Below are positions 9,426 through 15,873 of a DNA stretch of 20,920 bases, one piece after another. The stretch comes from a virus. Every line of letters begins with the position of its first letter. Position 1 is the stretch's first letter. The DNA is taken from positions 1 through 20,920 of the IMG/VR virus record IMGVR_UViG_3300042906_000464; one strand, written 5' to 3'. The notes below the pieces were generated by a model. The model was not told the origin of the DNA. It was given only the letters and a program-made list of their open reading frames with translations, and ran no database searches. Made by a program: the position numbers and the translations under genes.

Positions 9426-11215
9426 TGCCAAAATCAATTACGGTCACGCTTCCCGGCGGTGGCACACATACTTACGACAATGTGCCTGACAGCGTAACGC
9501 AAGAGCAGGCACAGGCTCGGGCGATGCAAGAATTTGGCTCTAGAGCAATTCAACCCGGAAGCCCTGCTGCTGCTGCAATGACGCACACGGTGTCATCGCA
9601 GCCCTCTGCGGCGCGTGGCCCAACCCCGTTTACGGTTGATAAGGATACCGGCGCAATGCGCCAGTTGACGGGAATGGAGAAGTTTGGTTACGGCTTTGGT
9701 CTTGGCGCACGCAACATCGGTTTAAACCTTGCCGAAATGGCGGGATTGACCTCTCCCGAGCGCGTCCGCGAGGCGCAAGCAGAAGGTGCTCCAATTACCG
9801 AACGGTTTCCCGGCAACATTGGTGCTTTTGCTGGAGAGACTGGAATGCTGCTGCCTGTTGGTATGGGCGTTGGCGGCATGGCTACGCGCATGGGCATGGT
9901 GCCGCGTGGCGTGTTTGCTGGCCTTACCGAAGGCGGCGTGCAGGGCGCTGTGGCTGCTGGCCCCGATGACCGGCTAGAAGGTTTGGGGATGGGCGTGCTT
10001 ACGGGCCTCGCGCTGCCCTCTGCAAAGCGCATGGCGCAGGTGTTGGCGAGTGGGCGCGATATGACCCGCTCTGCGCGTAAGTTGACCAGTCGCGGCGTTG
10101 ACCTTACGCCGGGACAAATGCAGCCAGAAAGCACCTACGGGCAGATTGAGGAGGCCATGATGGCCGTCCCAAAAATCGGCCCACGCATCAAAGCCTCGCG
10201 TGAACGCGGGTGGACGCAGACGCAGAACCTGATTGCACAGGAAGCCGCTCCTCCCGGTTTTACTACGCAACCCCGTCAAGACCCGCAGGCCATGTTCCGT
10301 GACCTGATTGACGCTTATGACAAGGCTTATGAGGTTGGCAAAGGTTACCCCATGCTTCCTGTCATTCGTCCTGACAAGGGGCCAGATGTGCCGTTGACCA
10401 AAGCGTTGCAAATTCCTCGCAACGCAGTAGGTACAGACGAAAGCCGCGCTTATGCTTCATCATTTATAAATAATGAATTAAGCGGGCTAACAAAACTTGT
10501 TGCAGAACGACGAAGACTTGGCAAAGATTTGTTAAGCGATGATTTGTTTGATTTGCGGTCGCGTATCCGTGCAAAAGTGCGCGACCTTCGCAAAAACAAA
10601 AACGCGCCTTTTGAGGCTGCGGATATGCTTGAAAATGTTGAGAGCCGCATTACCGAGGCATTAGATTCGCAATTGCCGTCAAATGTGATGCCAAAAATTC
10701 GTGCTATTGATAGCAAATACGGCAACTTTAAAATTCTTGAAGGCGCGCTGTACCGTGCTGGTGACAGAGAGGGAGGATTTACCCCCGCGCAGTTCTCGCA
10801 GGAAGTGCGGCAAGGGTCACAATCGCGCATGGGTTATGCCGCAGGCGGTGGTCGGATGCGTGACATTGCCGCATCTGGTCGGGAAGTGTTCGAGAACCGC
10901 CAGCCGCAGACGGGTCGCATGGCGTTGACTGTTGCGCCTGTTCTTGGCGCAGGCGGTGCTGCCGCTTTAGGTGGGCTTCCCGGTGCGCTTGGCGCGGCTG
11001 CGTTTACGGGTGCGGCTGTGCTGCCCTACCTGCGGAATGCAGCAGGCGATGTAGCGCGAGATGTTCTTATTGGTCGCACCACGCCGCAGGTTGCGATGCG
11101 AAATGTTCAGCGCAAGGTACGCCGAAAATTTACGCCGCAAGAGCGTGAGACGGTGGCGCGTTTGTTGGCAACACAAGGTATCGTTCTTGGCGCAACGCCG
11201 GAAGAACAGGAGTAA
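9425..11215 (+). CDS. Probable internal virion / DNA transfer protein with glycine-rich hydrophobic segments
   Basis: A 596-residue protein starting on the TAATG overlap. The N-terminus (ITVTLPGGGTHTYDNVPDSV, then TQEQAQARAMQEFG) is a small module repeatedly found at the head of phage internal proteins. Residues about 95-200 and 495-545 are Gly/Ala-rich and hydrophobic (for example LPVGMGVGGMATRMGM and VLGAGGAAALGGLPGALGAA), suited to membrane insertion during DNA ejection. Between them lies a charged helical stretch (residues about 330-430). The bases from about 10440 to 10740 are visibly more AT-rich than the rest of the gene, suggesting patchwork origin. A role as an ejection-channel protein is inferred, not shown. 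Confidence 0.55.
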   Translation: MPKSITVTLPGGGTHTYDNVPDSVTQEQAQARAMQEFGSRAIQPGSPAAAAMTHTVSSQPSAARGPTPFTVDKDTGAMRQLTGMEKFGYGFGLGARNIGLNLAEMAGLTSPERVREAQAEGAPITERFPGNIGAFAGETGMLLPVGMGVGGMATRMGMVPRGVFAGLTEGGVQGAVAAGPDDRLEGLGMGVLTGLALPSAKRMAQVLASGRDMTRSARKLTSRGVDLTPGQMQPESTYGQIEEAMMAVPKIGPRIKASRERGWTQTQNLIAQEAAPPGFTTQPRQDPQAMFRDLIDAYDKAYEVGKGYPMLPVIRPDKGPDVPLTKALQIPRNAVGTDESRAYASSFINNELSGLTKLVAERRRLGKDLLSDDLFDLRSRIRAKVRDLRKNKNAPFEAADMLENVESRITEALDSQLPSNVMPKIRAIDSKYGNFKILEGALYRAGDREGGFTPAQFSQEVRQGSQSRMGYAAGGGRMRDIAASGREVFENRQPQTGRMALTVAPVLGAGGAAALGGLPGALGAAAFTGAAVLPYLRNAAGDVARDVLIGRTTPQVAMRNVQRKVRRKFTPQERETVARLLATQGIVLGATPEEQE

Positions 11216-11221
11216 TCACAG

Positions 11222-13225
11222 ATGTCTTTCAATGGCTCGGGTACATTCCTTATCAACACGGCAGGCCAGCCTGTAGTCGCTGGCACCGTCATCTCGTCCA
11301 CGGCGTTTAACGCCCTGACGGCTGACCTTGCTACCGGCCTCTCGACCGTCATCACGAAGGACGGTCAGACGACGGTCACCGCCAACATCCCGATGTCCAC
11401 CTACAAGTTCACGGGGCTTGGGGTAGGCTCTGCCGCCACGGACTCTGCGAACTTGTCGCAGGTGCAGTCTACGGTCACCAAACTGCTTACAAGCGTCTCT
11501 GGGACGGACACCATCACGGCTGTGGGTGCGCCTGTGGTTGCCGCCTACGCTGCCGGACAGATGTTCTACTTCGTCGCTACGGGCGATAACACGGGCGCGG
11601 TGACGCTCAACATCGACTCGCTGGGTGCAAAGGCTGTGACCCGTGACGGGTCTGTGGCTCTTGCTGCGGGTGACATCAAGAGCGGTGAGGTGGTGGTAGT
11701 CGTCTATGACGGCACGCGCTTCCAAGTCGTCTCGCAGTTGAACAGCGCGGGTGATGCGCGGTTTGCCAATGTGTCGATTGCATCGTCGTTGTATGTCGGC
11801 GGTGTTTCGACCTTTGTCGGCAACGCTGGCTTTAGTGCCAATGTCTCCATTGCCTCTGCGCTGTCTGTAGGCGGTGTAGCGGCTATCACGGGCGCAACCA
11901 CGATAGGCGGCAACCTCACGCTCAACGGCGGCACCGCCAACGGCGTGTTGTACTTGAACGGCAGCAAGGTGGCGACGAGTGGGGCGGTGCTGGTGTTCGA
12001 CGGCACAAATCTAGGACTTGGTGCCGGGTCGTCTGCTTCTAAAGTCACAGGCGTATCAGGTTCTGGTACTGGGCTTACAGTTTCGGGCGGTGTCCCAACA
12101 CTTGCAGTTTGGGACACATCTAACGCTTCTAATTATTTCAACCTTTCTCAAGTTGGCGTCAACTCTTACTTGTGGGGAATTCCAGCCGGAGCGTTGATTT
12201 TTGGCACAGACAACACCGAGCGTATGCGCCTCAATTCGACGGGCCTCGGCATCGGGACGACTTCGCCTGCGTATAAGTTGACCGTGCAGAGTGCGATTGA
12301 CACCTACGCCTTTAACATCCGCGACACCATCGGCAACGAGCGTGTGTTGATTGGTTCTCGCTCAACAGCCCCGATTGACAACATCACGCCTGTGCAGATG
12401 GGTAACGACAACACGGGCAACCTGTTTCTGTCGTCCCGCACAAACTCGGCTTCTGGCATTAACTTCTACACCAACGCCGGAACAGCAGCATCGCTTCGAG
12501 CAACGCTCGACTCCTCCGGCAACCTCGGCATCGGGACGACGACTATTGGAAGCCGCGTCACGATTGGAGACCCCGGAACGGGTTTGGCTTTTTCAAACGC
12601 TGCGTCTGGCAACTTCAACATTGGCCTGCTTGCTGGCACCGGCTCTGCGCTGGCGTATGTTTACCAACGCGCTAATTCTGACTTGCTGTTTGGCACCAAC
12701 AACACCGAACGCGCCCGCATCACGAGCGGGGGGGATTTGCTGGTTGGAACGACAGCAACCACTATTGCAACCATTACTCAAAATGCTCTTGTAGCCAAAG
12801 CGTCTAACGGTTCTTTACTGATACACCACGAAGTTGGTAATACAGGAAGTGATTTTGCTGCCTTTGGGTATAACGGCGCAGTGATTGGGTCAATATATCC
12901 AAACAGTGCAAGCACAGTCGCATACGCCACATCCTCCGACTACCGCTTAAAGAACACCGTTGCACCAATGACAGGTGCGTTGGCAAAAGTAGCGTTGCTC
13001 AAGCCTTGCACATACAAGTGGAACGCTGATGGCTCTGATGGACAGGGCTTCATCGCTCATGAACTTGCGGAAGTTGTGCCTGATTGCGTGGTTGGCGAGA
13101 AGGACGCTGTGGACGCTGAAGGCAAGCCACGGTACCAAGGTGTTGATACCTCATTCTTGGTCGCTACGCTGACCGCTGCTATTCAAGAACTTACTGCGCG
13201 TGTCGCACAACTGGAGAGCAAATAA
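11222..13225 (+). CDS. Tail fibre/spike with C-terminal S74 autoproteolytic chaperone
   Basis: A 667-residue fibre-type protein. The N-terminus (MSFNGSGTFLINTAGQP, about residues 1-90) fits an attachment domain. The middle consists of beta-repeats with recurring V.IA(S/A).L.VGG and LGIGTT(S/T) units; the DNA block cctcggcatcgggacgac occurs twice (about 12244 and 12524). The last 99 residues are a peptidase S74 intramolecular chaperone: Ser572-Asp-Tyr-Arg-Leu-Lys577 matches the Ser/Lys dyad spacing, so self-cleavage just before Ser572 would release a 96-residue C-terminal domain. That domain includes GFIAHELAEVVPDCV and a final coiled-coil (LTAAIQELTARVAQLE). S74 domains assemble trimeric fibres before cleavage. 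The receptor is unknown. Confidence 0.85.
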   Translation: MSFNGSGTFLINTAGQPVVAGTVISSTAFNALTADLATGLSTVITKDGQTTVTANIPMSTYKFTGLGVGSAATDSANLSQVQSTVTKLLTSVSGTDTITAVGAPVVAAYAAGQMFYFVATGDNTGAVTLNIDSLGAKAVTRDGSVALAAGDIKSGEVVVVVYDGTRFQVVSQLNSAGDARFANVSIASSLYVGGVSTFVGNAGFSANVSIASALSVGGVAAITGATTIGGNLTLNGGTANGVLYLNGSKVATSGAVLVFDGTNLGLGAGSSASKVTGVSGSGTGLTVSGGVPTLAVWDTSNASNYFNLSQVGVNSYLWGIPAGALIFGTDNTERMRLNSTGLGIGTTSPAYKLTVQSAIDTYAFNIRDTIGNERVLIGSRSTAPIDNITPVQMGNDNTGNLFLSSRTNSASGINFYTNAGTAASLRATLDSSGNLGIGTTTIGSRVTIGDPGTGLAFSNAASGNFNIGLLAGTGSALAYVYQRANSDLLFGTNNTERARITSGGDLLVGTTATTIATITQNALVAKASNGSLLIHHEVGNTGSDFAAFGYNGAVIGSIYPNSASTVAYATSSDYRLKNTVAPMTGALAKVALLKPCTYKWNADGSDGQGFIAHELAEVVPDCVVGEKDAVDAEGKPRYQGVDTSFLVATLTAAIQELTARVAQLESK

Positions 13226-15161: not shown

Positions 15162-15201
15162 TGGCGAGGAAGGAATCGAACCTTCATTCACGGAGTCAAA
15201 G
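15161..15201 (-). pseudogene. 3' half of a tRNA-Gln(UUG) (split or remnant)
   Basis: Read on the minus strand, this stretch is the 3' half of a tRNA-Gln: anticodon loop CTTTGAC (anticodon UUG), anticodon-stem 3' strand TCCGT, variable region GAAT, T-arm GAAGG-TTCGATT-CCTTC, acceptor 3' strand CTCGCCA and discriminator T. The expected 5' strand of the anticodon stem (ACGGA) is missing. Directly 5' of the loop is instead the TAA stop of the HNH gene (15202-15204). CCA is not encoded. The pattern indicates a tRNA interrupted at the anticodon loop. Whether it is a remnant or one part of a split gene is unknown. Confidence 0.65.
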
Positions 15202-15765
15202 TTACTTTTTAGAGCGATTTCTGCCCCGCCATGTATTTGTGATGCAATGACAATTAGGGCAAAGCACTCTTAAATTGGAGCGCAAATTGTTTTTAGGGTT
15301 TCCATCAATATGGTCTAACTCTAACGACAATTTCTTCCCGCGCCATTCTTCCAATCCGCATTCTGTACAAGCATATTTTCCGTTTTCTTTTGCTATATGG
15401 CGACGCAACAACTTTTTTCTATACGGGTTTATTTTTTGACCGTTAAAACTTTCAATCAAAACATTAAATGAAAGTTCTGAAAATTTACTTCGTCGAGTTA
15501 TTTTCCCCTTTGTTATAGATTTAGACCAAGTGGCTTTTGCAAAGCCATATTTTTTTAGAATCTCTCCCATCGACATCCCGGCGTCGATATCTTGTTGAAC
15601 TAACTTCCAATCGTATGTTGGGCGGGGCGTCTTTTGCAGCCCAAGCCGCCTTGCGTGATAACTAACGGTAGCAGCAGAACACTCAAATTTTTTTCTTATT
15701 TCTCGATTTGATGCGCCTTGCTGCAACAAGGTTTTTATTTGTTTGCCAATTAAACGCGGTTGCAT
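15202..15765 (-). CDS. HNH homing-type endonuclease
   Basis: A 187-residue protein with two helix-turn-helix-like repeats at about residues 6-45 (SNREIRKKFECSAATVSYHA) and 55-85 (MSMGEILKKYGFAKATWSKS), and a C-terminal zinc HNH nuclease. The nuclease shows C133-x-x-C136, the ELDHIDGNPKNN core with D151-H152 and N159/N160, and C169-x-x-C172-H173. Such proteins make site-specific DNA breaks and spread their own gene. The gene is much richer in A/T than its neighbours, a sign of separate origin. The ATG (15763-15765) shares its A with the CCA end of the adjacent tRNA-Gln, so its ribosome binding site (the AGGCAGG run) lies inside the tRNA sequence. The stop directly precedes the tRNA half at 15201. 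Confidence 0.85.
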   Translation of the reverse strand: MQPRLIGKQIKTLLQQGASNREIRKKFECSAATVSYHARRLGLQKTPRPTYDWKLVQQDIDAGMSMGEILKKYGFAKATWSKSITKGKITRRSKFSELSFNVLIESFNGQKINPYRKKLLRRHIAKENGKYACTECGLEEWRGKKLSLELDHIDGNPKNNLRSNLRVLCPNCHCITNTWRGRNRSKK

Positions 15766-15839
15766 GGATTACCTGCCTCGGTTCGAACGAGGATTGCCGG
15801 GGTCAAAACCCGGAGTTTTGCCAGTTAAACTACAGGTAA
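15765..15839 (-). tRNA. tRNA-Gln (anticodon UUG), CCA encoded
   Basis: A complete cloverleaf of 75 bases on the minus strand: acceptor TTACCTG/CAGGTAA; D-arm GTTT-AACTGGCA-AAAC; anticodon arm CCGGG-TTTTGAC-CCCGG with anticodon UUG; variable CAAT; T-arm CCTCG-TTCGAAC-CGAGG; discriminator T; then CCA. The first pair is the weak U-A expected for Gln. Discriminator U73 is unusual, as many tRNA-Gln have G73. It would read CAA, and CAG by wobble. The CCA abuts the HNH start, so tRNA processing and HNH translation share the transcript. Confidence 0.92.
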
Positions 15840-15844
15840 GTATA

Positions 15845-15873
15845 CCAAAGTCCTACCGCTAGACGACTCTCCA
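15845..15873 (-). pseudogene. 5' half of a second tRNA (Gln-like)
   Basis: On the minus strand, TGGAGAG followed by TC, GTCT-AGCGGTA-GGAC and TTTGG looks like a tRNA 5' half: acceptor strand, the two-base linker and a complete D-arm. No matching anticodon stem or 3' half follows before the intact tRNA-Gln starts. The acceptor strand TGGAGAG would pair with the 3' half at 15161-15201 (CTCGCCA) at six of seven positions, so the two could be parts of one ancestral tRNA-Gln. This is inference from pairing. Confidence 0.55.

Follow-up and report, generated by a model that had tools for sequence, protein, structure and literature searches.

A putative homing cassette that interrupts a phage tRNA-Gln gene and carries its own tRNA-Gln and HNH endonuclease gene

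According to the available part of one account, the ribosome site of I-TevI of phage T4 is hidden in the structure of a long transcript, and an internal late promoter is placed so that it gives a short RNA without the 5' side of the hiding structure; segB and mobE of Aeh1 have similar expression arrangements (PMC2988022). In the excerpts available, SegB of T4 is described as cutting in tRNA genes and as often associated with tRNAs (PMC13096335), and as the product of a free-standing nuclease gene that lies among tRNA genes and favors inheritance of the tRNA region (PMC2988022, PMC13096335). No report of SegB splitting a tRNA and carrying a replacement with the same anticodon was found in the accessible portions of the sources. 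Phage homing genes have also been treated at recombination boundaries, as far as the available text of a further source goes (PMC10448857).

The window analyzed here, the whole stretch of 20,920 nt, comes from a phage group known solely from environmental DNA. On its minus strand, where all features of the locus lie, a resident (type-1) tRNA-Gln gene is broken in two. Its 5' half (acceptor 5' strand and D-arm, 15850..15873) and its 3' half (anticodon loop onward, T-arm and acceptor 3' strand, 15162..15202) were recognized by their match to intact type-1 genes of relatives, found at the same locus; this second, broken tRNA-Gln was absent from an earlier note on the same DNA. Between the halves lie an extended -10 promoter-like box (TGGTATACT, 15839..15847), the final T of which is base 1 of a replacement (type-2) tRNA-Gln with anticodon TTG (15765..15839; ARAGORN, Rfam RF00005 at 56.7 bits, covariation), and the gene of a 187-aa HNH endonuclease (15202..15765), which starts with ATG and whose TAA stop overlaps the type-1 3' half. 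The HNH gene has a GC content of 0.40 versus 0.57 for the window. A 661-nt block (15191..15851) shows zero differences from a second contig (L001), with diverged flanks. We consider it almost certain that the tRNA and the HNH gene form one mobile cassette, sitting in the anticodon arm of the broken resident gene.

As in the available description of I-TevI (PMC2988022), the ribosome site of the cassette appears hidden in the long transcript, here in computed folds only. Unlike in I-TevI, the covering structure is the acceptor stem of a tRNA and the cassette promoter is a sequence match only; I-TevI is, moreover, an intron-encoded GIY-YIG enzyme. The HNH gene resembles segB, so far as the sources describe it, in being a free-standing nuclease gene beside tRNA genes, but SegB is a GIY-YIG enzyme. 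In its insertion place and its nuclease gene the cassette is similar to group I introns in tRNA anticodon arms, from which it differs in having no intron RNA recognizable by Rfam and in the loss of exon sequence. By analogy, the cassette may work like I-TevI, segB and mobE, but it consists of an HNH gene and its own replacement tRNA, and such a cassette was not found described in the titles and abstract starts of open-licence PMC text.

The corresponding locus was extracted from relatives by anchoring on a 193-aa gene upstream and the endolysin gene downstream, giving 103 rows that include twice-fetched contigs as duplicates (L002 is the window itself). An intact type-1 tRNA-Gln, the empty site, was found in 79 rows, a type-2 tRNA-Gln alone in 20, the cassette in three (window, L002 and L001) and another tRNA-Gln variant in one (L073); the insertion interrupts a site that is intact in relatives. 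ARAGORN was applied to 25 of these loci and reported a single tRNA per locus, Gln(TTG) throughout. The lone type-2 tRNA-Gln occupies the place of type-1 in L010, L012, L029, L042, L044, L047, L131, L142 and others, loci that have no type-1 remnants and perhaps represent the state after HNH loss. A 1.6-kb insert with other genes directly follows an intact type-1 tRNA-Gln in L025, L027, L028, L048, L051, L128 and others.

Scanning viral contigs for the HNH gene gave one locus with the first query, two with a two-sequence query and 16 with a three-sequence alignment; nine of the 16 were full-length cassettes and were used, and seven weaker, partial HNH matches (L299-L305) were left out. Duplicate loci were L298 (of L162), L290 (of L001) and L291 (of L163). 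The cassette was found in ten loci of four lineages: A (window, L001), B (L163), C (L162, L292, L297) and D (L293-L296). Each of the ten loci has the type-1 5' half, a TATA(C/A)T box, the type-2 tRNA-Gln and the HNH gene, and each lacks about seven type-1 nucleotides at the left junction. The type-1 3' half is present in nine and missing in B, and the HNH stop codon overlaps it or lies within it in A, C and D. An assembly error is unlikely, given that junctions of this kind recur in ten IMG/VR records. In L163, the HNH gene is followed by a 354-aa gene that looks metallophosphoesterase-like by eye. Among bacterial genome contigs, the patterns used gave no HNH relative (18 stretches matched, none confirmed) and the type-2 tRNA 5' pattern was not found, while the only DNA similarity of the locus to named phages was one match in the endolysin and short ones in HNH.

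Between loci within lineages A and C, cassette identity is 97-100%, with flanks down to 68-90% or lower. For the window and L001, the nearest differences outside the 661 identical nucleotides are at 15852 and 15190, and the 100-nt flank bins are 76-98% identical, the eight nearest 76-97%. In lineage C, L162 and L292 have a cassette identity of 97% with flanks at 73-75%; L292 and L297 have 98%, against 68% in the upstream flank, their downstream flanks showing no clear similarity; and L162 and L297 have 97% with 94% upstream and an unrelated downstream region. A filled and an empty site, L162 and L159, have 747 of 800 upstream bases in common, and in the downstream alignment, which has 98 gap columns, 461 of 551 aligned bases are identical. 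The contrast between cassette and flanks was not seen in lineage D (flanks 94-100%). Judged by these alignments, in lineages A and C the cassette is transferred from genome to genome as one unit, and it is probable that this homing is driven by the HNH protein. The window and L001 have other near-identical blocks in common, so the two recombine elsewhere too: positions 10837-11992 of the window are 99.6% identical to L001 over 1,156 nt, with neighboring stretches far more diverged, which we read as the trace of a recent exchange outside the cassette region.

Substitution patterns indicate that selection acts on both the tRNA and the HNH gene. All 21 pairs of the type-2 tRNA are kept in eight distinct sequences, four of them changed on both sides, and the covariation score was reached by none of 500 shuffles; for HNH, the five comparisons with finite dS gave dN/dS values of 0.12-0.21, the three comparisons with lineage A being saturated. 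We consider the type-2 tRNA-Gln(UUG) very likely a functional replacement. In lineage B, the cassette tRNA (L163, 6715-6740) carries the 15-nt anticodon arm of type-1, CGGACTTTGACTCCG, unlike A, C and D; because it holds this core of type-1 genes, it is doubtful whether the replacement tRNA is itself immune in this lineage.

The HNH protein combines an N-terminal helix-turn-helix region with a C-terminal HNH core, in which Cys, His and Asn are invariant in seven sequences. It matched HNH families of PHROG (best E 2.6e-25) and Pfam HNH_3 at 19.4 bits, below the cut-off of 24.8; the named nuclease matches in Pfam and PHROG were HNH only, with no GIY-YIG nuclease among them. Confidence in the structure model is modest (pLDDT 71.8, pTM 0.38), and solved relatives were found neither by sequence nor by fold at E<=0.001. 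Among the matches listed, T5-like, Pakpunavirus, Eneladusvirus and T4-like phages have a related HNH core near tRNA genes (27-43% identity), with tRNA-to-start gaps of about 4-92 nt, unlike the cassette. In Edwardsiella phage PEi26 (L166, 2989-3459), an unannotated HNH ORF begins ~5 nt after the CCA of a tRNA-Leu and overlaps the 5' end of a tRNA-Met, a second HNH packed tightly between tRNAs.

The earlier note had started from the overlap of the tRNA and the HNH gene, and position 15765 is indeed both the last base of the encoded CCA (15767-15765) and the first of the HNH ATG. The sole SD-like run near this start, AGGCAGG (15778-15772), likewise lies where it had been placed, in the T-stem and acceptor 3' strands of the type-2 tRNA, with 6 nt between AGG and ATG. 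In the window, an in-frame TAA two codons upstream of the ATG excludes an earlier start; in lineages B and D, as in A, the start is likewise defined by an in-frame stop close before it, while in C the frame is open upstream, with an in-frame GTG within the acceptor. M1 of HNH is aligned in all four lineages, the gene adjoins the same tRNA in 10/10 loci, and its ATG lies 2-4 nt past the discriminator base in every lineage. Exact A-sharing occurs in lineages A and B only (3/10 loci); the junction is CCAAATG in C, and in D there is no encoded CCA and the sequence is TCTAAATG. As the junctions read, the HNH ribosome site must sit inside the tRNA in all four lineages, so that A-sharing, found in two of them, is a detail and the embedding is the constant. 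The SD-like run is also present in 11/11 solo-tRNA haplotypes without HNH, and we therefore reject its evolution for HNH and regard it as co-opted, not built as a switch. Its duplex energy with the anti-SD sequence, which we take to be E. coli-type and which may not be that of the host, ranks fifth among 26 window genes.

Each of the ten cassettes has a TATA(C/A)T box whose final base is tRNA base 1, an arrangement absent from the lone tRNAs examined; counted by haplotype, TATAMT is at this place in 8/8 with HNH versus 0/11 solo. A scan of viral contigs for the box joined to a tRNA start returned nine contigs, every one an HNH cassette. TGNTATAMT occurs only once in the window (shuffles had a mean of 0.31, and 28 of 100 gave at least one), and the box of lineage D has no preceding TG. 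None of the four TATA columns varies between lineages, compared with invariance at 3 of 27 fourfold sites, the columns having been picked after the fact, and the association of box and HNH is partly explained by common descent alone. A sigma-70 two-hexamer scan gave nothing on this strand at the locus, and no -35 match. Transcription usually starts 6-8 nt downstream of a -10 box; an RNA starting near tRNA base 8 would be without the acceptor 5' strand and could not be a tRNA. We put an internal promoter at the tRNA 5' end at even odds.

In computed folds of full-length RNAs, pre-tRNA included, AGG is nearly always paired within the tRNA, its unpaired probability being at most 0.08 in A, B and C and at most 0.19 in D, which supports the claim that folding hides the ribosome site. 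In RNAs starting at base 8 (37 C), AGG becomes partly accessible, with corresponding values of 0.24 in A, 0.53 in C and 0.46 in D; in lineage B, AGG is not clearly freed (0.15). With truncation, the cost of opening the SD-to-AUG stretch is lower in A and C and unchanged in B, and in D it is lower only against an RNA starting at base 1. The AUG itself is paired more often in the short RNA of lineage A.

Our main reading, to which we assign a probability of about 0.6, is that of a homing cassette composed of the -10 box, tRNA-Gln(UUG) and HNH, with the following expression logic. The cassette, the broken halves, the empty sites, the movement between alleles and the selection on tRNA and HNH are apparent from the sequences themselves. 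The HNH protein would cut intact type-1 tRNA-Gln genes of co-infecting phages, repair of the cut would copy the cassette into the type-1 gene, and the bundled type-2 tRNA would replace the one destroyed by insertion. Read-through RNA from upstream genes would fold into the tRNA and hide the HNH ribosome site, which tRNA maturation would then cut off. A promoter with its -10 box ending at tRNA base 1 would start RNA near base 8, and this RNA, unable to form the acceptor stem, would be translatable into HNH. We hold it somewhat less likely than not that this is a selfish element that destroys the phage tRNA-Gln gene, supplies a replacement, and keeps its endonuclease switched off by means of the acceptor stem of that replacement, a block lifted by a promoter from which transcription starts within the tRNA. 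By analogy, the arrangement resembles the T4 I-TevI/segB scheme more closely than pure competition with tRNA maturation.

Such competition, an either/or between making a tRNA and making the endonuclease, was what the earlier note had proposed. In its plain form, a single transcript without a separate promoter, each molecule of which becomes tRNA or HNH mRNA by folding or maturation, we find it unlikely. Part of it stands: the ribosome site is buried in the tRNA in 4/4 lineages and takes part in pairing in full-length RNAs, and AGGCAGG is lost from every RNA that is cut at the 3' end of the tRNA, as had been argued. Against it, the SD-like run is ordinary tRNA sequence, A-sharing and the CCA are not conserved, and a TATA box accompanies HNH at the tRNA 5' end and suggests a separate, truncated transcript, close to what the note itself had named as refuting its proposal.

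It is also unlikely that the locus reflects plain gene packing, in which a homing gene landed beside a tRNA and the overlap has no control role. A viral scan for tRNAs ending at CCATG gave at least 128 matches in at least 120 loci. Among the matches listed, at least 101 viral tRNAs have the A of CCATG as their exact last base, and an ORF of >=60 aa opens there in 15/101 and of >=100 aa in 11/101, so the overlap alone recurs in phages, with unrelated genes, and is not unique; exact A-sharing in 2/4 lineages fits packing as well. Several of these ORFs resemble real genes by eye. In L187, L225, L240, L256, L267 and L279, the A of the CCA is that of the ATG of long ORFs, some of them resembling ThyX or sugar-nucleotide dehydratase by eye. 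Packing is opposed by the abutment being kept in 4/4 lineages despite nearly randomized fourfold sites; the persistence of the HNH-tRNA abutment in ten loci of four lineages is beyond chance.

We give still less credence to maturation making the HNH message, a cut after the discriminator leaving a near-leaderless RNA (CCAUG, CCAAAUG, CUAAAUG) for SD-less translation. The short distance of 2-4 nt from discriminator to ATG, common to the four lineages, would suit it, as would other phage CCATG tRNAs that open ORFs without an evident SD (L225, L279), but in many bacteria an encoded CCA should prevent the RNase from cutting at this place. An intron of the type-1 tRNA that is spliced out would explain the position in the anticodon arm and the acceptor, D and T stems that still pair in C_L292 and D_L293, but we reject it as highly improbable, given seven type-1 nucleotides gone at every left junction, mismatched stems in the window (acceptor), L001 (D and T) and L162 (D), and no intron family found by Rfam.

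Read as a homing cassette, the locus offers a mechanism for swapping phage tRNA genes with the same anticodon, and it is a compact case in which one RNA segment would serve as tRNA, ribosome-site cover and leader. The natural pairs of empty and filled sites allow direct testing of homing into a tRNA gene. If the proposal is true, supplying a replacement tRNA would make the selfish element hard to lose.
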